A DNA stretch of 17,326 nt from a bacterium. Lineage in GTDB: Bacteria; UBP15; UBA6099; JAJRTR01. Shown one piece after another: positions 4,560-14,882 of the stretch. The translations under genes were made by a program, and so were the position numbers. Numbering within the stretch: the first letter of the stretch is position 1; each line of letters begins with the position of its first letter. The notes below the pieces were generated by a model, which saw nothing but the letters and a program-made list of their open reading frames with translations, did not search any database and was not told where the DNA came from. Location: the NCBI GenBank assembly GCA_024278215.1, contig JAJRTR010000029.1:1-17326 (forward strand). Direction: 5' to 3'.

Positions 4560-7382
4560 ATGAAGATACTAACACGTATTAGCATTAATCATCCCCGGAT
4601 AGTGGTTTTTGTGGTGACGGTATTTACGCTCGGGCTGCTTCTCGCGTCAGTGCTTCCATCGCTGTTCCTGAAAACATTTCCATATATGAACACTATAAAG
4701 GTAGATACCGACCCGGAAAATATGCTGTCCGGCGATGAACCGGCAAGAGTGTACCACAACGCGGAGAAAAAGGAATTCGGACTATGGGATGTGATTGTAG
4801 TAGGAGTAGTGAACGACACGCAGAAAAACGGAGTATTCAATAAGAAGACATTGAGTGATGTATATGATCTGGTGGAATATGCGAAGACGATAAGCTGGAA
4901 GGACGCCGACGGGAAGAAGCAGGGGGTAGTTGAAGTAGATGTAATGGCGCCCTCGACGGTAGACAATATCGAGCAGGCCGGGCCGGGCACAGTCAGATTC
5001 GACTGGTTGATGCCGCGCGCGCCGAAGACCGAGGCCGAGGCGGAAGCTGTGTGGGAGAAGGCCGCCAGGCTGCCCATGCTGAACGGAACACTTGTGTCGG
5101 AGGATGGAACGGCGCTTGCCGTTTATATCCCGATTACCGCGAAGAATATAAGCTATCGGGTTGCAAAAAAGCTTGAGAAAAAGATAGCGGAATTCGAGGG
5201 CGGAGACAAATACTATATTACCGGACTTCCTGTCGCGCAGGACACTTTCGGTGTCGAGATGTTTACGCAGATGGCGATTTCCGCGCCGCTTGCGATGCTT
5301 CTTATTTTCATCCTGATGTGGTTTTTCTTCAGGAACATTTCGGTTATATTGTCGCCGATGATTGTTGCCATCATGTCGGTGATAAGTACTATGGGACTGC
5401 TCGTGATAACCGGCAACACGATACATATTATGAGCTCCATGATACCGATATTCATCATGCCGATAGCTGTGCTGGATTCAATACATATTATCTCGGATTT
5501 CTATGACAAGTATCAGAAAACGGGCGACAGGCGAAAGACTATCGTGGCGGTTATGGATGAGTTGTCCGCACCGATGTTTTTTACATCGTTGACGACGATG
5601 GCCGGTTTCGGTTCGCTTGTGATGACGCCGATTCCGCCAGTGCAGACGTTCGGACTTTTCGTCGCTGTCGGTGTGCTGATCGCGTGGGTGGTGACAGTGA
5701 TGTTCGTACCGGCGTTCATCATGCTAAAAAGTGAAAAGTCGCTTGCGGGATTCGGCATGTCCCATCATGACGTTAACAAATCGTTGCTGGCTCGCATAAT
5801 GCACTGGCTGGGCAGGGGAACATACAATCATGCCAGGCTAATCCTGACGGTAATGCTGTTGATGGGAGTAGTGGCAGTGTACGGCATAACAAAAATCACG
5901 ATAAACGATAATCCGGTTAAATGGTTCTCGAATAAACATAAAATCAGGATTGCCGACAGAGAATTGAACAAGCGTTTTGCCGGTACGTATATGGCATATC
6001 TCGAGATCGAACCTGAAGACCTTGAAAAGGATCCAGAAAAAGTAATCGCCGGGTTGCGCGGTCTGAATATACCTGAGGCGGAGAGAACTGCGGCGGAAGC
6101 GGAAAAACTTAAAAATTCTGATGGAAATGATTTCATGTCGGGCATAAAAAACTTTGTAGAAAAAGCTGCCGCGGAGCCGTCGGGCGAAGACGCGAAAGCC
6201 GGATGGAACGATGCTCTGGACTATCTCGATACGCTCGATCCCTATACCGGCGATTTCGACAAGGAAGCTGTTATCGGGCAACTTGCCGCAAAACAACAAC
6301 CCGAGTTTCAGAGACTGGCCGCGAAAGCACGTGAACTGAAGGATTTGCCCGCCGAAGATTTTTACGACGACTTATATTCTTTCGCAGACGACGAATCGTT
6401 GACTACCGGCTGGGACAAAGTGCGCGGATACCTCGATGCAGTCGAACTCGAGGGACAGTTCTTTAAGAATCCGGAATCGCTTGCTTATGTTGAAAACCTC
6501 CAGAAGTATCTGCTCGATACCGGACTGGTCGGGAAATCGAATTCACTGGTCGATGTCGTAAAAACCGTATCGCGTGAACTTTACGGCAGCAAAGATGCGT
6601 TCAGGATTCCCGACACACAGGCGGCGGTCGGCCAGACGCTGTTGCAGTATCAGAACAGCCACAGGCCGAACGATCTGTGGAAAATGGTGACGCCGGACTA
6701 CAGAAAACTGAATATCTGGATACAGCTCAAAAGCGGCGACAACAAGGATATGAACGCTCTGGTTAAGGCAGTGGATAAGTATTTCGAGGATAATAAGTCT
6801 CCGCTGAAACTGAATCATAATTGGTTCGGACTTACATATATAAACGTGATATGGCAGGAAAAGATGGTGAAAGGTATGATGAAGGCGTTTCTCGGCAGCT
6901 TCGTTATTGTGCTGATACTGATGGTGATACTCTTCAGGTCGTTCCTGTGGGGACTGCTCTCGATGATACCGCTTACGCTGACCATCGGGATAATATACGG
7001 GATGATAGGCCTTGTCGGTAAGGACTATGATATGCCTGTAGCGGTGTTGTCGTCGCTGACTCTGGGTCTGGCAGTGGATTATGCGATTCACTTCATATCA
7101 AGAAGCCGTGAGATGCGGGAACGATACGACAACTGGCGCGATACGACAGATGCCGTGTTCGGCGAACCGGCACGCGCCATCACAAGGAATGTCATTGTCA
7201 TAGGTGTCGGTTTCCTGCCACTGCTTGCCGCGCCGCTTGTGCCCTACAAGACGGTAGGCGTCTTCATATCCGCCATTCTGCTGCTGGCCGGAGCCGCGAC
7301 ACTTCTGATATTACCGGCATTGATTAAGGTGATGGAAGGTGTTTTATTCAAGAAAACAAAGAAGGCTGAAAGTAATGAATGA
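4560..7382 (+). CDS. RND superfamily (MMPL-type, HAE3-like) exporter
   Basis: 940 residues with two similar halves. An N-terminal membrane helix (about 13-36) is followed by a periplasmic loop (40-235), five or six helices (238-388), a helix at 425-445, a very large second periplasmic loop (about 446-770) and the last helices (775-925). Each half has an acidic residue in the fourth-helix region, D306 in 'VLDSIHI' and D840 in 'GLAVDYAIHF', as expected for proton-coupled MMPL/HAE3 pumps. HAE3 relatives move hydrophobic molecules such as lipids or hopanoids out of the inner membrane. The second loop carries an internal duplication (505-560 and 581-631). GAGG lies 8 bases before the ATG. The next genes encode a LolA-like periplasmic protein and an outer-membrane barrel, pointing to a trans-envelope route. 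Substrate unknown. Confidence 0.93.
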   Translation: MKILTRISINHPRIVVFVVTVFTLGLLLASVLPSLFLKTFPYMNTIKVDTDPENMLSGDEPARVYHNAEKKEFGLWDVIVVGVVNDTQKNGVFNKKTLSDVYDLVEYAKTISWKDADGKKQGVVEVDVMAPSTVDNIEQAGPGTVRFDWLMPRAPKTEAEAEAVWEKAARLPMLNGTLVSEDGTALAVYIPITAKNISYRVAKKLEKKIAEFEGGDKYYITGLPVAQDTFGVEMFTQMAISAPLAMLLIFILMWFFFRNISVILSPMIVAIMSVISTMGLLVITGNTIHIMSSMIPIFIMPIAVLDSIHIISDFYDKYQKTGDRRKTIVAVMDELSAPMFFTSLTTMAGFGSLVMTPIPPVQTFGLFVAVGVLIAWVVTVMFVPAFIMLKSEKSLAGFGMSHHDVNKSLLARIMHWLGRGTYNHARLILTVMLLMGVVAVYGITKITINDNPVKWFSNKHKIRIADRELNKRFAGTYMAYLEIEPEDLEKDPEKVIAGLRGLNIPEAERTAAEAEKLKNSDGNDFMSGIKNFVEKAAAEPSGEDAKAGWNDALDYLDTLDPYTGDFDKEAVIGQLAAKQQPEFQRLAAKARELKDLPAEDFYDDLYSFADDESLTTGWDKVRGYLDAVELEGQFFKNPESLAYVENLQKYLLDTGLVGKSNSLVDVVKTVSRELYGSKDAFRIPDTQAAVGQTLLQYQNSHRPNDLWKMVTPDYRKLNIWIQLKSGDNKDMNALVKAVDKYFEDNKSPLKLNHNWFGLTYINVIWQEKMVKGMMKAFLGSFVIVLILMVILFRSFLWGLLSMIPLTLTIGIIYGMIGLVGKDYDMPVAVLSSLTLGLAVDYAIHFISRSREMRERYDNWRDTTDAVFGEPARAITRNVIVIGVGFLPLLAAPLVPYKTVGVFISAILLLAGAATLLILPALIKVMEGVLFKKTKKAESNE

Positions 7383-7400
7383 TTTTGTTATTTATATAGT

Positions 7401-7438
7401 GAGCCGTCGGTAAAGGTTTGCTGTACCGCATTCGGCTC
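7401..7438 (+). other. Two-part hairpin between the RND and LolA-like genes
   Basis: Arms GAGCCG (7401-7406) with CGGCTC (7433-7438), and inside them CGGTA (7408-7412) with TACCG (7424-7428), leaving an 11-base loop and a 1-by-4 internal loop. No T-tract follows, so it is more likely an RNA-stabilising or expression-setting intercistronic structure than a terminator. The 148-base gap has no gene. Confidence 0.45.
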
Positions 7439-7530
7439 CAGTATGAACCGGTTCCGGGTTATTCCGCTTGATCGAATGGGCCGGAATTGCAACAGGCTGA
7501 AACTAAAAACAGAGAACGGGGGTAATGAAA

Positions 7531-8316
7531 ATGAAAAAATTGATAGTGATATTGCTGGTAATGATGTTCGCGGTGCCCGCGCTGGCGATGGAGGTCGACG
7601 AGATTGTCGACAGGGCAAACACTATGGCTTATTACCAGGGCAAGGACGGCAGGGCGACCGTAAACATGGTGATAACCGACTCGCAGGGGCGCGAGCGAAC
7701 ACGCCAACTCGTTATCCTGCGCTACGACGAAGGCGAGAAAGAGGATAACGGCAATCAGATGTTCTATGTCTACTTCACACGCCCGGCAGATGTGAACAAG
7801 ACGGCTTTCCTCGTCCACAAGTTTCCCGATAAGGATGACGACCGATGGCTCTACCTGCCTGCACTCGATCTGGTGAAACGTATCGCCGCGGGCGACGACC
7901 GCACCAGCTTCGTCGGATCCACTTTCTTCTATGAAGATGTGTCCGGCAGGAGCCCGAATGACGACAAACACGAGCTGGTCGAAACAACCGACAATTATTA
8001 TGTGCTGAAAAATATTCCGAAAAATCCGGGCAACGTCGAGTTCTCTTACTATAAGGTATGGATACATAAATCGACCTTTCTGCCTGTCAAAATCGAGTAC
8101 TACGACGAAAAAGGTGAGCCGTATCGCACGTATACCGCCACAAAAGTCGAAAAGATCGACGGATTCACTACTGTGACCCAGGCGACGATGACAGACAAAA
8201 GACTCGGCACAACAACCTCCATGAGCTATTCCGATGTGAAATATAATGTTGGCGTACCGCCGGATATTTTCACGGAGCGATACCTGCGTAAACCGCCGAG
8301 GAAGTATCTGCGGTAA
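7531..8316 (+). CDS. Outer membrane lipoprotein-sorting protein (LolA-like, PF17131 type)
   Basis: 261 residues with a signal peptide ending AVPALA (cleavage near residue 19), so periplasmic. The mature part has the family pattern: a short helix 'VDEIVDRAN', then beta-rich segments including 'FYVYFTRPADVNKTAFLVH', 'DRWLYLPALDLVKRIAAGD', 'SFVGSTFFYEDVSGRS', 'VWIHKSTFLPVKIEYYDEKG' and the terminal 'FTERYLRKPPRKYLR'. Proteins of this type have a LolA/LolB-like half-barrel that holds acyl chains and are commonly encoded beside MMPL/RND pumps. It probably accepts a lipid or other hydrophobe from the pump at 4560-7382. GGGGG at 7518-7522 lies 8 bases from ATG 7531 but only 2 from ATG 7525, so I prefer the later start; the alternative adds two residues. 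Confidence 0.9.
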   Translation: MKKLIVILLVMMFAVPALAMEVDEIVDRANTMAYYQGKDGRATVNMVITDSQGRERTRQLVILRYDEGEKEDNGNQMFYVYFTRPADVNKTAFLVHKFPDKDDDRWLYLPALDLVKRIAAGDDRTSFVGSTFFYEDVSGRSPNDDKHELVETTDNYYVLKNIPKNPGNVEFSYYKVWIHKSTFLPVKIEYYDEKGEPYRTYTATKVEKIDGFTTVTQATMTDKRLGTTTSMSYSDVKYNVGVPPDIFTERYLRKPPRKYLR

Positions 8317-8440
8317 CGCGCTGTTTGAGGAACATCGGGAATCAGTTTCATGCGATCTGGTTTATGTGCATGACCCGGAAATTGCATGTTTTTTCTTACC
8401 GCATTGCAGGTCTGGGAATTAGCATTTAAGAGGTAACAAT

Positions 8441-9895
8441 ATGAAAATGTATGTGAAATGTGTATTCGCGTTGTTGATGATAGTCTTATTGCCGATCATT
8501 ATATACGCTGAAGAACCCGCGCTCCCATCGGGGTTGAGCGGCTCGAGCGAGCCCGGCCTTCCTACCGGTCTCGGCGGCCCGGCAGAACCGGGACTGCCCG
8601 CGGGGCTCGGCGGCGGCGAACCGTCGCTTCCCACAGGCATTGGCTCCGGGAGTGTTGAAAACACAAGCATGTTTTTCGACGATGAAGATGCGGGACTTCC
8701 GATTACCGGCTTCTGGGAAGTGCTGCTCGGCACACGAATACAGGATGATCGGTATGAGCAGGAAATGCCGGCGGGCGAGACGCGACTCCAGATGGAATAT
8801 GAGAAAACGAGGGGTATATTTACGCTCAATCTTACCGCCGATCTGCTTTATGATGTCGTGCTGAGCGACAAGGAAGTGGACCTCGAGACCGGGCGGGGCG
8901 CGTTCGATCTGCGCGAGGCAAAACTCAATTTCAGTCCGATAGATTCGCTCGATGTGAGCATCGGCAGGCAGACGCTCACATGGGGTACCGGCGACCTTCT
9001 GTTCATAAATGACCTGTTCCCGAAAGACTGGAATTCTTTCTTCATCGGTAGAAATGATGAATATCTCAAGGCACCTTCCGATGCTGTGAAACTGTCGTTG
9101 TTCAATAATCTGATGAACATAGACTTTGTTTACACTCCGAAATTTGACTCCGACAGGTACATAGACGGGCGAAGGATTTCATATTATAACGCGAACCTCG
9201 ATAGCCTGGCAGGCCGCAACGCCGTCGTGCGCGCAAGGGAAATGTACGACTGGTTCAGGGAAGATGAATTCGCCGTCAGGCTTTACAAAAACTTCGGGCC
9301 TTATGAATTCGCGCTCTACGGTTATGACGGCTACTGGAAAAGCCCCAACGGTCAGGACCCTGCAACATGGGACTATATTTTCCCTGAATTATCCGTCTAC
9401 GGTTTCAGCCTCAGGGGCCCGTTCCGCACGGGGATAGCCAACATCGAGGCGGGACTCTATAAGAGCCGCGAAGACTCGAGCGGCGACAATATGTTTGTCC
9501 GCAACAGCGAGTTCCGCCTGCTGCTCGGTTACGAGCAGGAACTTAAGAAAAACCTCACAGGCGCGTTTCAGTATTACCTTGAAAATATGCTCGATTACGA
9601 CGCCTACAAAGGCAGTATGCCCGCGGGGACAGCGCTCAAAGACGAGTTCCGGCATGTGCTGACATTCCGCATCACCAAACTTATGATGAACCAGAACCTG
9701 CAACTGTCGCTATTCAATTATTATTCGCCATCCGACACGGACGGATATTTCCGGCCCAAACTGAATTACAAGATCAACGATTTTTACACAGTCGAAACCG
9801 GCTTGAATATTTTCTACGGAAACAGCGATAAAACTTTCTTCGGGCAGTTCGAGGACAACTCGAATATCTACGCTAGCATGAGGTACAGTTACTGA
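8441..9895 (+). CDS. Outer-membrane beta-barrel protein, DUF1302-like, with EPxLPxGL linker
   Basis: 484 residues. A signal peptide (1-23, ending IIYA) is followed by a low-complexity linker (25-71) made of four EPxLPxG(L/I) units. The rest, from about residue 80, is rich in alternating amphipathic strands and aromatic residues and ends 'NIYASMRYSY' with a terminal Tyr, the usual barrel-assembly signal. The segment 'LDVSIGRQTLTWGTGDLLF' and the following 'NDLFPKDWNSFFIGRNDEYL' resemble DUF1302 and related porin-like barrels. Such barrels often sit beside MMPL pumps and LolA-like proteins. It would give the outer-membrane step of the proposed export or import route. GAGG lies 7 bases before the ATG. 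The 124-base gap upstream contains no other gene. Confidence 0.85.
   Translation: MKMYVKCVFALLMIVLLPIIIYAEEPALPSGLSGSSEPGLPTGLGGPAEPGLPAGLGGGEPSLPTGIGSGSVENTSMFFDDEDAGLPITGFWEVLLGTRIQDDRYEQEMPAGETRLQMEYEKTRGIFTLNLTADLLYDVVLSDKEVDLETGRGAFDLREAKLNFSPIDSLDVSIGRQTLTWGTGDLLFINDLFPKDWNSFFIGRNDEYLKAPSDAVKLSLFNNLMNIDFVYTPKFDSDRYIDGRRISYYNANLDSLAGRNAVVRAREMYDWFREDEFAVRLYKNFGPYEFALYGYDGYWKSPNGQDPATWDYIFPELSVYGFSLRGPFRTGIANIEAGLYKSREDSSGDNMFVRNSEFRLLLGYEQELKKNLTGAFQYYLENMLDYDAYKGSMPAGTALKDEFRHVLTFRITKLMMNQNLQLSLFNYYSPSDTDGYFRPKLNYKINDFYTVETGLNIFYGNSDKTFFGQFEDNSNIYASMRYSY
8513..8653 (+). repeat. Four EPxLPxG(L/I) tandem units in the barrel's N-terminal linker
   Basis: Residues 25-71 of the barrel protein read as EPALPSGLSGSS, EPGLPTGLGGPA, EPGLPAGLGGG and EPSLPTGIGSGS. 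The units are 11-12 residues long and begin right after the signal peptide, so they probably form a flexible or polyproline-like periplasmic arm. Confidence 0.85.
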
Positions 9896-9951: not shown

Positions 9952-9985
9952 AAGGGACGTCTCCGAATATTCGGAGACGTCCCTT
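9952..9985 (-). terminator. Perfect 34-bp palindrome, terminator between convergent genes
   Basis: The two 17-base arms are exact inverses (centre GAAT/ATTC between 9968 and 9969; outer part AAGGGACGTCTCC). On the minus strand the stem is followed directly by TTTTTGTGTTTTT, which fits an intrinsic terminator for the CX6C-repeat gene. On plus it lies 57 bases after the barrel's stop, followed by a weaker TTATATT. A second hairpin (CCCGCTT 10027-10033 with AAGCGGG 10043-10049) lies between it and the minus-strand stop. Confidence 0.75.
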
Positions 9986-10063: not shown

Positions 10064-10987
10064 TTATTCCCCGTCTGTAGTGCCTGATTCCGTTGCACTG
10101 TCGACATCAGTTGTTGCGGTTGTTGCGTCGTCGGCAGTTGTGCCGGAATCTGTCGATATTGTCGTAGAAGACTCAAGATCGCCGATACTATTCAACGGGC
10201 ATTGATCCGGGTCTTCCTCGCAGAGTTTCTTCATCTCCTGCATTTTGTTTTTCATGTCTTCTTTCTTCTGTTCACATTCTTCGGGGTTCTCTTCGCACCA
10301 TGCTTTGAACTCTTCTCTTTTCTGTTGCAGTGCCTCTTTTTTCTGCTGACACTCGTCCGGATTTGTCTCGCACCAGCTTTTGAACTCCTGTGCTTTTTCC
10401 CTTATTTTCTCTTTTTTCGTTGCACATTCATCGGGGTTCTTCTCACACCAATCTTTAAGCTGCTGTGCATTTTTCTTTATCTTTTCTTTCTTCGCGGCGC
10501 ACTCATCCGGATTGCTGCTACACCATTCCTTAAACTCTTTCTTTTTCGCCTGCATCGCCTGTGCTTTTTCTTTTATCTTCTCTTTCTTCGCGGCGCACTC
10601 GTCCGGATTTTCCTCACAGAGGCTCTTCATCTCTTTTGCCTTCTCTTTAATTTTCTCCTTCTGTTTCTCGCATTTTTCCGGGTTTTTCTCGCACATCTTT
10701 TTTCTCTTGTCGACGATATTTTTAATTTTCTCTTTTTTCTGCGCGCATTCCTCCGGATTATCCTCACACCACTGTTTTTTCTCCTTAAGCTTTTCTTTGA
10801 ATTTCTCGCATTTTTCGGGATGATTCTTGCAGATGGCCCCACGACTCCTTATGTTCGGGGCTACTGTCTTGCCGGTAGAGTCTGTCGACTGCGCATTTGC
10901 CGTAATCGCAACTCCGATAAGCATCACCGCGCAAAAAACAATCGTAAAAAAACATCTGAATCCCGAAACACTCTTTTTGCTTTTCAT
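10064..10987 (-). CDS. Secreted Lys/Glu-rich protein with nine CX6C (CxxNPxxC-type) repeats
   Basis: 307 residues from ATG 10987, with AGGAG immediately upstream. A longer reading from TTG 11035 would put 16 polar residues before the signal peptide and is unlikely. A signal peptide (1-32, ending ANA) is followed by a short Ser/Thr stretch. Residues 53-263 hold nine cysteine pairs of the form C-x-x-N-P-D/E-x-C (one with H, one with D in place of N), separated by charged helical segments such as 'AAKKEKIKEKAQ'. All 18 cysteines of the mature protein belong to these pairs. The tail (from about 270) is Thr/Ser/Asp-rich. I read it as a chain of helices joined by disulphide-clamped NP turns in the periplasm or outside the cell, or alternatively a metal binder. 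I cannot name a family. A terminator precedes it, so it is probably transcribed separately from the sialidase gene. Confidence 0.85.
   Translation of the reverse strand: MKSKKSVSGFRCFFTIVFCAVMLIGVAITANAQSTDSTGKTVAPNIRSRGAICKNHPEKCEKFKEKLKEKKQWCEDNPEECAQKKEKIKNIVDKRKKMCEKNPEKCEKQKEKIKEKAKEMKSLCEENPDECAAKKEKIKEKAQAMQAKKKEFKEWCSSNPDECAAKKEKIKKNAQQLKDWCEKNPDECATKKEKIREKAQEFKSWCETNPDECQQKKEALQQKREEFKAWCEENPEECEQKKEDMKNKMQEMKKLCEEDPDQCPLNSIGDLESSTTISTDSGTTADDATTATTDVDSATESGTTDGE
10199..10831 (-). repeat. Coding repeat array, nine CX6C units
   Basis: Distances between the first cysteines of successive units are 21, 25, 25, 32, 25, 25, 25 and 25 residues. Most units are therefore 25 residues (75 bases); the first is four residues shorter, and one is longer by exactly seven. 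The turn (NPDE/NPEE/NPEK) and the preceding W/L-C are kept, while the Lys/Glu/Gln/Ala helix varies. Confidence 0.88.
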
Positions 10988-11060
10988 TTCTCCTGTACCG
11001 CCTTTCTGTGATCTATACTTGTATTTGATGCGCAACTCGGGCGCAGGTTAAAAGAGGAAT

Positions 11061-11096
11061 AAAAAAAAGTAACAGTCCCCAGGGTAGACCCCGGGA
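11061..11096 (-). terminator. Intrinsic terminator after the sialidase-like gene
   Basis: On the minus strand a GC-rich hairpin (11096-11076; outer TCCC/GGGA, inner GGG-TAGA-CCC, small internal mismatch) is followed about seven bases later by a run of eight T (11068-11061). It sits 46 bases after the stop at 11142 and separates that gene from the CX6C gene. Confidence 0.6.
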
Positions 11097-11141
11097 ACGA
11101 CGAAATAGCCGACAGCCTTGTTGCTGCTTGGAGTGTTATTA

Positions 11142-12185
11142 TTATTGTGCGGCTGTTATCCACGCTTCATTGAAAACAGCGTGTTTTATCGAGACCCTTT
11201 TATATGTGTATGTCACGTGTATCAGGTTGTCGGAAGTCGTGATTATCGCGGGATAAGAGAATTCTTCACCTTTTTTATATTCGAGGTTCCTTTTGGCCGA
11301 CCATGTTTTACCTTCATCGGTCGACAGTGCGACAGTGAGTGTATTTCGATTGTCGGGCGAATCATTATAAGCGAGTGCGATGTGACCGTCGGCAAGCATA
11401 ACCATATCGCAGGCGGAATGCGGGTTACGGACATCCGTTGTATAAGGTTTGCTCCATTTTTTTCCGTTGTTTTTTGATCTCGACCACCACATCAAGCCGT
11501 TTTTCGAGCCTGTGCGCATACCGGCGAGCAGCGACCCGTCTGAAAGCTGCACGACAGTTGGTTGCAGGTTTGTGCCGGGTGACCTTATCACACTTGACAT
11601 CTTCCATTTTCGGCCACCATTCCCGGATATCAGGAATTCGGAGTCGAACAGGACTTCATTGTATATCGGTAGCAGAATGTAACCGTTTTTCAGTTGAAGC
11701 GGTTTGTTGCGTGTCATCCATCCTTCGCGTTCGAGCATCTGCACGGGTTCCGACCACGTTTTACCCCGGTCGGGCGATTTCTTGAAGAAGATGAGCGCCT
11801 GGTTCCAATTGTCCTTCATGATAGTTACAAAAAACAGCCACAGTTTATTGTCCGGTCCGAACCACAGCACGGGGTTGCCCTCGCTTTTGTCCGGCGTGTC
11901 GTGCAGTATCCAGGGTTCGGACCATTTTGTTTCGCCCCTGCCGAGCCGCGCGCCGTAGACGGCGACATTTTTTGCCTTCTCGTAGTCGCCTCCGTAATAT
12001 GCGGCGAGGATATCGCCGCCGGGCAGTTCCACAAGTGTCGATCCGTGACACTGTTTGATGTCGACCTTTTCCGGCTCGAAAATAAGTTCGCTCCGAAAGT
12101 ATGGATTCTCATCCGCTCGCACCGTGATAATATCGAGTGCCGAAAAAGCAATACATATCAGGCATGTTATCAGTACTGTTTTCAT
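11142..12185 (-). CDS. Secreted sialidase-like protein (BNR/Asp-box, PF13088-like)
   Basis: 347 residues with a signal peptide (about 1-24, ending VRA). Four Asp-box motifs (S-x-D/N-x-G-x-T/K-W) mark a six-bladed propeller: 137-144 SPDRGKTW, 187-194 SGNGGRKW, 237-244 SKNNGKKW and 288-295 STDEGKTW. The segments 'CHGSTLVELPGGDILAAYYG', 'TRNKPLQLKNGYILLPIYNE' and 'LQPTVVQLSDGSLLAGMRT' are typical of the BNR_2 exo-alpha-sialidase-like group. The FRIP/YRIP motif that supplies the first catalytic arginine of classical GH33 sialidases is not seen, so the true substrate may be another sugar. It lies 99 bases after the GH3 gene on the same strand, so both may act together on extracytoplasmic glycans. 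AAGGTGG lies about 9 bases before the ATG. Confidence 0.85.
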   Translation of the reverse strand: MKTVLITCLICIAFSALDIITVRADENPYFRSELIFEPEKVDIKQCHGSTLVELPGGDILAAYYGGDYEKAKNVAVYGARLGRGETKWSEPWILHDTPDKSEGNPVLWFGPDNKLWLFFVTIMKDNWNQALIFFKKSPDRGKTWSEPVQMLEREGWMTRNKPLQLKNGYILLPIYNEVLFDSEFLISGNGGRKWKMSSVIRSPGTNLQPTVVQLSDGSLLAGMRTGSKNGLMWWSRSKNNGKKWSKPYTTDVRNPHSACDMVMLADGHIALAYNDSPDNRNTLTVALSTDEGKTWSAKRNLEYKKGEEFSYPAIITTSDNLIHVTYTYKRVSIKHAVFNEAWITAAQ

Positions 12186-12212
12186 TAGAATACCACCTTA
12201 GTGATTTCGTGA

Positions 12213-12228
12213 TCCGGCGTTAGCCGGA
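12213..12228 (-). other. Short hairpin between the GH3 and sialidase-like genes
   Basis: TCCGGC and GCCGGA arms with loop GTTA form a perfect 6-bp stem in the 99-base gap. No T-tract follows on the minus strand, so read-through is likely and the hairpin may only mark the junction. Confidence 0.35.
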
Positions 12229-12284
12229 ACATAAACAGTATTATATCCCGGAATTCTTAACCATTCTGCTGCATAGTCGGATTA

Positions 12285-14882
12285 TCATTCGAGAAGCAGA
12301 TCGCCATTCAGGCGAATGTCACGCGACGAACTACCGATCTGTATCTCGAATAGTCCCGGTTCGGCTGTCCACCGCATCCTGTCCGCATCGTAGAAGCTGA
12401 GAGCCGCGCGGCCGATCTCGAACACTACATTTTTTGTTTCTCCGGGTTTCAGCGCGATCTTTCGGATGCCTTTGAGTTCTCTGACAGGGCGCTCGACGCT
12501 TGCTTCGTCGTCGTGAACATATAGCTGGACGACCTCTTTGCCAGCGCGTGATCCGGTGTTCGTTACATCGAGGCTGACCTTCACGGTTTTATCGCCGGGG
12601 CCTATATTCTTCGGCTCGATCTTCAGCCCGTCATATTTAAAGCTCGTGTAGGAGAGTCCGTAGCCGAATGGGAAAACCGGCTCGATGTTTTGCTTATCGT
12701 AATACCTGTATCCCACGAAGATACCTTCGTCGAAATGTACTTCGCCGTCTTTGCCGCTGCCGGGATAATTGCCGAACGCCGGGCATTGTTCCCACGAGCG
12801 CGGATATGTTATCGGCAGCTTGCCGGAAGGATTCACATCACCGAAGAGAATCTCCGCAACGGCCCGGCCGCCTTCCTCGCCGGGATACCATGCTTCCACA
12901 AGCGCGGCTACTTTATCCAGCCAGCGGTTTATAACCAGCGGCGTGCCGTTTATCATAACGACAATCGTATTGGGGTTTGCGGCGGCAACAGCCTCGATAA
13001 GGTCATTTTGCAGACCTGGCAATTCGATGTTGTCGCGGTCATGGCCTTCGCCCTCGAAACTCCTGTCGAGGCCGACAACGACTACAGCCGCGTCGCTGTC
13101 ACCGGCAAGTTTCGCCGCCTCGCCAATAAGGCTCCTATCCGGGCGCGACCAGCCAAGTTTCACAGTTGCCGGACCGCCGAGATCAGAATATTCAAAACGG
13201 ATTTTGTAGCGCCTGCCTGCCCTGAGTTTTACAGAACCGGACTTTGCTTTCCGGTTGTCTGTCCCATAATTATGCAGAATCGCCTTACCCTTTATATATA
13301 AATGTGCGGCGCCGTCGCCGATGGCGGTGAAGGTATATCGACCGCTAACCGGCGGGACGAGGACACCTTTCCAGCGGATAGTGAATCTGTCACGGTTGAC
13401 CTTTTTGTCCGGCGATTCGGATTTCCAGTTGAAGTCGATTTGTTTGTAGACACGCGACAGAACCGGCTCGCCTGTAACATTCGCGGAATTGAAGAAATCG
13501 GCGGCAAGGCCGTGCTCGCCGCTGTTGACTCCGGCGGGTATGAGAAATGTCGACGGTATCACCTCGAAGTCGACGGGAACCCGGACATCGCATCCGGGCG
13601 CGTAGCGGACCTGGACATCGTCGCCGGCTTCCTTGAGTATCCCCTCGAGCGGCGACACGCCATAAGTCGGTGTGACTTCCGAACTGCCGCCGCCGCCCAT
13701 GCGCGCCACTGCGGCGTTGGGGCCGATCACGGCCAGAGAGTGGATTTCGTCACGATTTATCGGCAACAGGTTGTTATCATTCTTCAGCAGCACTATCCCC
13801 TCGCGCGCCGCGTCGAGCGCCACGGCGCGGTTCTCCGGCGAGTCCGTCCAGTTGCCGTCGACGATGATTTTTTGATCGAACAGGCCGGTGGTAAACATAA
13901 CCCTCAATATGCGCCTTACCATGTTGTCCAGTACCGATTCGGGCACGTCTCCATTACGCACCGCCTCGATCAGTTCGTCGTCAAGGTACTTCCCGCTGCC
14001 CATCTCGATATCCATACCGGAAAGAACCGTAGGCACAGTGCTGTGCACAGCGCCCCAGTCGGACATGACAAACCCCCTAAAACCCCATTCGTTCCTCAGA
14101 ATATCCGTCAGCAGATGTCTGTTTTCGCAGGCGTGCACACCGTTTATGCGGTTGTATGAGCACATGATCGACCACGCGCCGCCTTCCTGCATAGCCGCCC
14201 TGAACTGCGGCAGATAAAGCTCGCGCAGCGTGCGTTCGTCAATCTGCACACTGATCGAACCACGGTTTATCTCCTGATTGTTGACGGCAAAGTGTTTGGG
14301 GGTGGCGACAACATTCAGGCTCTGCACGCCTTTAATATAGCCGACAGCCATGCGGCCCGCGAGGAAAGGGTCTTCGGAGAAACTCTCGAAGTTGCGACCG
14401 CCCATTGGCACACGGTGAATATTTATGCAGGGACCGAGGATAATGTTGCGGCCCTTCGCGAGAGTCTCGCGCGCCAGTCCCGCACCGACACTCTCCAGCA
14501 GTTGTTCGTTCCATGTAGAAGCGAGCGTAACACCGGTCGGGAAAGCCGTGGCTTCGCCCCAGCGCACGCCGTGCGGCCCGTCAGTCATGCTTAGGCGCGG
14601 AATGCCCAGCCGGGGCACCGGGGCCGTATCCATTCCTGTCGACGGATCGCCATGCACAAGCAAGTCTTTTTCATCGAGTGTCATGCGGTCCAGCAGGTCT
14701 TCCACTCTCTGCCCCGTCGGCGCGTCCTGTTTCATATACAGCGGCTGTTCGGTTTCGGAGCCGTCGGCGGCAACGCTGCCGCCCATCACTGAAACAAGCA
14801 TAAATATCACTACCGGAATGAGATATGGAATTCCTGTTTTTACTTCTGTGCATCTTTCAATGATCGTTTGAATGTTTCTCAT
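12285..14882 (-). CDS. Secreted GH3 beta-glycosidase with PA14 domain
   Basis: 865 residues. An N-terminal hydrophobic segment (17-39, ending SVAA) suggests export. The GH3 barrel (about 55-330) includes MTDGPHGVRW, FSEDPFLAG, KHF (196-198), 'SIMCSYNRINGVHACENRHL' and the nucleophile Asp275 in FVMSDWGAVH. The second GH3 domain (from about 355) is interrupted by a PA14 domain (about 452-580). It resumes with 'GLDRSFEGEGHDRDNIELPG', where Glu610 or Glu612 is the likely acid/base, and ends near GYGLSYTSF. A fibronectin-III-like domain follows (about 765-835). This order matches PA14-containing beta-glucosidases, which release terminal beta-linked sugars; the PA14 insert shapes the active-site entrance and restricts chain length. 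Sugar specificity is open. AAAGGA lies about 8 bases before the ATG. Followed by the sialidase-like gene. Confidence 0.95.
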   Translation of the reverse strand: MRNIQTIIERCTEVKTGIPYLIPVVIFMLVSVMGGSVAADGSETEQPLYMKQDAPTGQRVEDLLDRMTLDEKDLLVHGDPSTGMDTAPVPRLGIPRLSMTDGPHGVRWGEATAFPTGVTLASTWNEQLLESVGAGLARETLAKGRNIILGPCINIHRVPMGGRNFESFSEDPFLAGRMAVGYIKGVQSLNVVATPKHFAVNNQEINRGSISVQIDERTLRELYLPQFRAAMQEGGAWSIMCSYNRINGVHACENRHLLTDILRNEWGFRGFVMSDWGAVHSTVPTVLSGMDIEMGSGKYLDDELIEAVRNGDVPESVLDNMVRRILRVMFTTGLFDQKIIVDGNWTDSPENRAVALDAAREGIVLLKNDNNLLPINRDEIHSLAVIGPNAAVARMGGGGSSEVTPTYGVSPLEGILKEAGDDVQVRYAPGCDVRVPVDFEVIPSTFLIPAGVNSGEHGLAADFFNSANVTGEPVLSRVYKQIDFNWKSESPDKKVNRDRFTIRWKGVLVPPVSGRYTFTAIGDGAAHLYIKGKAILHNYGTDNRKAKSGSVKLRAGRRYKIRFEYSDLGGPATVKLGWSRPDRSLIGEAAKLAGDSDAAVVVVGLDRSFEGEGHDRDNIELPGLQNDLIEAVAAANPNTIVVMINGTPLVINRWLDKVAALVEAWYPGEEGGRAVAEILFGDVNPSGKLPITYPRSWEQCPAFGNYPGSGKDGEVHFDEGIFVGYRYYDKQNIEPVFPFGYGLSYTSFKYDGLKIEPKNIGPGDKTVKVSLDVTNTGSRAGKEVVQLYVHDDEASVERPVRELKGIRKIALKPGETKNVVFEIGRAALSFYDADRMRWTAEPGLFEIQIGSSSRDIRLNGDLLLE

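Follow-up and report, generated by a model that had tools for sequence, protein, structure and literature searches.

The Helicobacter cysteine-rich proteins HcpB and HcpC, together with Csep1P of Campylobacter concisus, are secreted proteins built of alpha/alpha repeats with an internal disulfide that connects one helix, at its end, with the beginning of the following helix (PMC12904459). In Csep1P, these disulfides join Cys59-68, Cys97-106, and Cys156-165, and it has been proposed that the disulfides of the Hcp and Csep1P proteins set the angle of the hairpin (PMC12904459). Repeat region 2 of Helicobacter pylori CagY is likewise exported and consists of tandem alpha-helical repeats with a high content of Lys and Glu; Cys residues occur in them at regular positions and are thought to form disulfides (PMC2581425).

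The protein described here is encoded in a 17,326-nucleotide stretch of DNA that was analyzed as a whole (the window). It resembles Hcp and Csep1P in having a disulfide between successive helices of an exported repeat protein, which in the present case is a prediction, and it resembles CagY in its exported Lys/Glu-rich helical repeats with Cys at regular positions. The Cys residues of Csep1P are further apart (CX8C), whereas those of the window protein form a CX6C motif with a central N/D-P; the Hcp proteins are built of a Sel1-like repeat, whereas the units here are single helices of about 25 residues. The Sel1 profile of Pfam matched neither the window protein nor 31 relatives, and the predicted structure of the window protein did not match the HcpB/HcpC fold in a Foldseek search against the PDB. 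In CagY, a different set of motifs belongs to a large type IV secretion protein and varies by expansion and contraction of DNA repeats, whereas the DNA repeats of the window are old; Pfam scans of the window protein and its relatives gave no match to the CagY family. The Hcp and Csep1P solenoids and the CagY repeats are the nearest analogues, and the window protein is analogous to them, not a member of either group.

An exported protein with nine CX6C pairs

The gene occupies positions 10064 to 10987 on the minus strand (as do all of its features given below) and encodes 307 residues, with coordinates and strand as first annotated. Its ATG lies at 10987, with AGGAG 2 nucleotides 5' of it, and its stop codon is at 10064 to 10066. 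Residues 1 to 32 (10892 to 10987; MKSKK at the start, ITANA followed by QS at the end) have the sequence of a Sec-type signal peptide, for which the structural model gives a helix at residues 10 to 30 with low confidence. Cleavage is expected after ITANA and would leave a mature protein of 275 residues. Two Cys residues within the hydrophobic core of the signal peptide form a chance CX6C pair. At the other end, residues 264 to 307 (10067 to 10198) make up an acidic tail rich in Thr, Ser, and Asp (calculated pI of 4.1 for residues 266 to 307), which corresponds to the Thr/Ser-rich tail described earlier and is predicted to be disordered (pLDDT below 50 from residue 274).

A strong terminator-like hairpin with a 15-bp stem lies 3' of the gene (9952 to 9985, minus strand), where it also serves the convergent gene at 8441 to 9895, and another lies between the CX6C gene and the upstream gene at 11142 to 12185 (11075 to 11098, minus strand). 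Because such hairpins flank both sides, the sequence suggests a single-gene transcript. An antisense ORF of 269 residues (10202 to 11011, plus strand) overlaps the gene; it is unlikely to be a gene itself, being a Phe/Leu-rich mirror of Lys/Glu codons.

Residues 53 to 263 (10199 to 10831) form the repeat array, in which nine C-x2-[NHD]-P-x2-C corners are joined by predicted Lys/Glu-rich helices. The motifs start at residues 53, 74, 99, 124, 156, 181, 206, 231, and 256, with spacings of 21, 25, 25, 32, 25, 25, 25, and 25; the first is CKNHPEKC (residues 53 to 60; 10808 to 10831) and the last is CEEDPDQC (residues 256 to 263; 10199 to 10222). The initial annotation had described nine C-x-x-N-P-x-x-C pairs on a mostly 25-residue period that hold every cysteine of the mature protein. 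The period (25 in six of eight spacings) and the pairing of all 18 mature Cys residues in nine CX6C motifs were confirmed, and the strict form of the motif proved to hold for seven of the nine, with HP in the first and DP in the last. When the mature sequence was shuffled 20,000 times, CX6C pairs numbered 1.1 on average and 6 at most, against nine in the mature part of the protein. When units were compared codon by codon, synonymous sites were saturated (pS of about 1.0) against non-synonymous differences of 0.23, and TRF reported a single weak 75-bp array. Judged by this saturation, the repeats are old and selected at the protein level rather than products of recent DNA duplication.

An unnamed family defined by C-x2-[N/D]-P-x2-C

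Searches of Pfam, NCBIfam, and PDB sequences with the window protein gave only sub-threshold or coiled-coil composition matches: DUF4880 and DUF5330 scored weakly, under their cutoffs, and the matches to SMC, Rad50, and PDB coiled coils were weak composition effects. Two PDB entries, 9s7x and 9oz0 (a sulfatase and a Tox-REase-5 protein), contain a motif-like stretch near the C terminus (sequence matches with E of about 0.2). Whole-protein tblastn-type searches over relatives, genome contigs, viral contigs, and plasmids recovered no relatives of the window protein, and a literature search found no paper describing the CX2[ND]PX2C motif.

Since the protein-level search was blinded by composition, 84,980 species were scanned for a degenerate DNA pattern spanning three units in succession. 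Forty-seven stretches were found, and 32 of them translate to small exported proteins with tandem C-x2-[N/D]-P-x2-C motifs and charged linkers, nearly all from Beta- and Gammaproteobacteria. The remainder (loci L012, L014, L022 to L024, L032, L033, L041, L042, and L047 to L052) were judged on translation to be minisatellite or other Cys-rich frames and not relatives, and the single match on a viral contig (L009) was a minisatellite frame on a phage contig. A profile made from the window units only matched gammaproteobacterial members strongly (L044, E = 1.8e-28; L017, 2.4e-19; L034, 2.6e-18) and some EF-hand-containing betaproteobacterial members weakly (L026, 0.019). In the reverse direction, an HMM of relatives only, with the window rows excluded, recovered the window protein with E = 1.1e-47 overall and 2.2e-11 for its best single domain; among shuffled and reversed decoys, none scored better than 0.012 in either search. 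On these reciprocal profiles, the window protein is joined to the relatives in Beta- and Gammaproteobacteria. Members were recognized by export and by tandem C-x2-[N/D]-P-x2-C motifs between charged helices, and the window protein has this architecture with nine motifs. The earlier view that no family could be named stands for Pfam, NCBIfam, and PDB; the protein is no orphan, having many unnamed relatives. The CX6C-repeat family is real and undescribed, and of a known general kind.

The relatives share with the window protein the motif, export, and the predicted helix-corner pattern as well as the reciprocal profile matches, and they differ in having three to seven units rather than nine; many have EF-hands, and none has the Thr/Ser tail, unlike the window protein. 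A 50-position profile found no further member in 385 other, widely drawn bacterial genomes. Surveys of the class of L044 (368 genomes) and of the order of L029 (199 genomes) each yielded four more, some of which repeat earlier loci; new matches left out of profile building have the same architecture. At L072 (genome G676), two tandem CX6C-repeat genes both encode a [FY]PD[RH]P-type tail, which is partly common to L073 and L074. L075 (genome G494) encodes a 395-residue lipoprotein-like protein with a divergent CX6C helical region at its C-terminal end, a possible domain fusion of the family. The phylum-level group of the window genome is small (seven genomes in one order), and the gene is present in the window genome alone among the seven; this scattered distribution suggests that the gene was either transferred horizontally or lost widely.

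Conservation was assessed over 37 proteins with 179 motifs. Only two Cys residues lie outside CX6C, and in 35 of the 37 proteins all mature Cys residues are paired. At motif position 4, 170 of the 179 motifs (95%) have N, D, S, or T; at position 5, 174 (97%) have Pro, a value partly ascertained by the search pattern. Asn, Asp, Ser, and Thr are classic helix N-cap residues, and Pro is favored in the first helical turn, so that the motif reads as the end of a helix, a cap, and a new helix. The relatives are spaced mostly at 18 to 28 residues. In the window protein and the gammaproteobacterial members, almost all spacings are 18, 21, 25, 28, or 32, half-heptad steps by which consecutive Cys pairs stay close to a single face of the helix; the betaproteobacterial members alternate between 19 and 21 and do not follow this rule. 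The sequence rule of the family is clear (charged helices separated by C-x2-[N/D]-P-x2-C), and current libraries miss the family, probably because low-complexity filters and the shortness of the repeats hide it.

Predicted helices, corners, and disulfides

An AlphaFold2 model of the window protein, built with 32 family sequences, has a pLDDT of at least 90 for 206 residues, with blocks 51 to 260 nearly all above 90; the pTM is only 0.58, in part owing to disorder in at least a quarter of the chain, and is compatible with either a rod or a compact solenoid as the overall shape. The predicted helices (residues 57 to 76, 78 to 101, 103 to 126, 128 to 158, 160 to 183, 185 to 208, 210 to 233, and 235 to 258) are interrupted at exactly one residue, immediately before each motif Pro. 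A separate model of L026 also has a one-residue break at each motif, followed by a C-terminal EF-hand pair; among the matches listed, PDB folds corresponded to this pair only. Foldseek searches with the window model returned one unrelated match in the PDB (E = 4.6) and no significant fold match among viral models.

In an ideal continuous helix, the two Cβ atoms of a CX6C pair are 10.9 Å apart. If the break residue of an ideal chain is instead placed in the beta region, a conformation favored by a following Pro, they can come within 3 to 5 Å of each other, and the helices then meet at about 110 to 138 degrees. Ideal geometry would thus make one disulfide per motif natural at the break and impossible without it. 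About two thirds of the disulfide-compatible arrays of this kind clash, so real corners must deviate from the ideal, and the superhelix shape derived from it was set aside as not decisive.

These results suggest, with a probability of roughly 0.65, that the window protein is an oxidized, exported helical repeat scaffold with one predicted disulfide staple per corner. After Sec export, it would fold outside the cytoplasm as a chain of about ten Lys/Glu-rich alpha-helices, mostly of 20 to 24 residues. A helix would run up to the first Cys of each motif, N/D at position 4 would cap the next helix, and Pro at position 5 would start it, so that the chain would turn sharply, by about 110 to 140 degrees over one residue. 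The two Cys residues would meet at this corner and be oxidized to one disulfide, which would fix the angle between the helices. Nine staples along one array could yield a rigid, highly charged helical repeat scaffold, the length of which would be set by the number of units; the sequence rule directly predicts one disulfide per corner. A disulfide-clamped helical array had already been proposed from the sequence. The predicted structure, the corner geometry, the Cys pairing in 37 proteins, and a DsbA-like protein and VKOR encoded by the same genome, which make oxidation of exported Cys available, all point in that direction. As for its role, we tentatively favor extracytoplasmic binding or spacing, through protein-protein or polyanion contacts, at somewhat less than even odds.

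Genomic neighborhoods and alternative functions

In Betaproteobacteria, the gene order (for example, at L026, L036, and L039) is a divergent risA-risS pair, a small exported protein, the CX6C-repeat protein (in this branch often with EF-hands), DUF1800, DUF1501 (with a Tat signal), and a DndB-like gene. DUF1800 is present at 14 of 22 betaproteobacterial loci, and Pfam gave no match for the small exported protein at position -1. DUF1800 and DUF1501, both of unknown function, have also been observed to occur together next to bacterial chitin synthase genes (PMC5122149). The family thereby links an exported protein to these two domains and to RisAS. The short gammaproteobacterial members are encoded between xerC and hslV at seven loci (L010, L017, L025, L027, L034, L037, and L054), and hslV is also present at an eighth. 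The neighbors of the window gene include none of risAS, DUF1800-DUF1501, or xerC-hslV, and DUF1501 is absent from its genome, so the CX6C protein does not depend on them everywhere. L044 and L053 also lack both contexts; these neighbors therefore mark branches and not the whole family.

The betaproteobacterial arrangement bears on the possibility that the family serves as a Spy/CpxP-like periplasmic accessory or chaperone that works together with a sensor kinase, with Ca2+ input through EF-hands in that branch. Like Spy and CpxP, the CX6C proteins are small, charged, helical, and exported, and the betaproteobacterial relatives adjoin a two-component system: at each of the 18 betaproteobacterial loci whose upstream DNA was long enough, a RisA-type regulator is divergent within about 1.6 kb, usually with RisS, and EF-hands are present in 11 of 32 aligned family members. 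However, the family is defined by its Cys pairs, the LTxxQ/Spy profiles matched neither the window protein nor its relatives, there are no two-component genes near the window gene, and the gammaproteobacterial relatives lie between xerC and hslV. The RisAS synteny may also reflect mere neighborhood, and we consider this function unlikely.

The Cys residues themselves could be the active element. The initial annotation offered a multi-site metal binder as its alternative. In such a protein, a soft metal ion would sit between the two thiolates of each CX6C. With two Cys residues in each of nine motifs, strict pairing fits a two-ligand site equally well, but no conserved His, Asp, or other third ligand moves with the Cys residues, and helix capping accounts for the conserved N/D-P. 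The protein is exported to an oxidizing compartment in a genome that encodes a DsbA-like protein and VKOR, and the window contains no metal-resistance genes; the metal-binding alternative gains nothing from the present analysis and is very improbable. Marginally less probable still is a role as an extracytoplasmic store of thiols or a redox buffer, whose disulfides would be made and broken rather than being structural. Such a buffer would account for 18 Cys residues in 275 and for the two oxidation proteins, but the motif and the helix geometry are strictly kept together, neither a CXXC motif nor a thioredoxin fold is present, and the half-heptad spacings of the window and gammaproteobacterial members hold the Cys pairs near one helix face, as in a structural part. 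That the ORF is a spurious, low-complexity product of K/E-coding repeats, as its composition and the long antisense ORF might suggest, is negligibly probable given the signal peptide, the AGGAG before the ATG, the saturated synonymous against low non-synonymous change between units, and above all conservation of the same architecture in dozens of relatives.

The stapled helical scaffold thus remains our preferred reading. A bolder version of it, which we regard as speculative and rather unlikely, is that these proteins form a new class of extracytoplasmic solenoid of helices. One CX6C disulfide would set each corner angle, stiffness would depend on redox state, and the number of units would set the length, which would change by half-heptad steps; in Betaproteobacteria, where the array is joined to EF-hands and its gene lies beside risAS, it might be a calcium- and redox-responsive part of the envelope.

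Elsewhere in the window, an MMPL-family exporter, a LolA-like protein, and an unmatched, possibly beta-barrel protein are encoded in a row (4560 to 9895, plus strand), an arrangement reminiscent of a cassette for outer-membrane lipid transport. A distant genome (G039) encodes a protein with 57 to 61% identity to the MMPL protein, whereas genomes of the same order have no match to it; this suggests horizontal acquisition. Misbinning of the contig was considered for the same reason and rejected: the tetranucleotide correlation of the window was 0.64 to 0.82 with contigs of its own bin and 0.03 to 0.55 with others, so the window fits its bin. Upstream of the CX6C gene (11142 to 14882, minus strand), a sialidase-like BNR protein adjoins a GH3 glycosidase with an inserted PA14 domain, and both are apparently exported.
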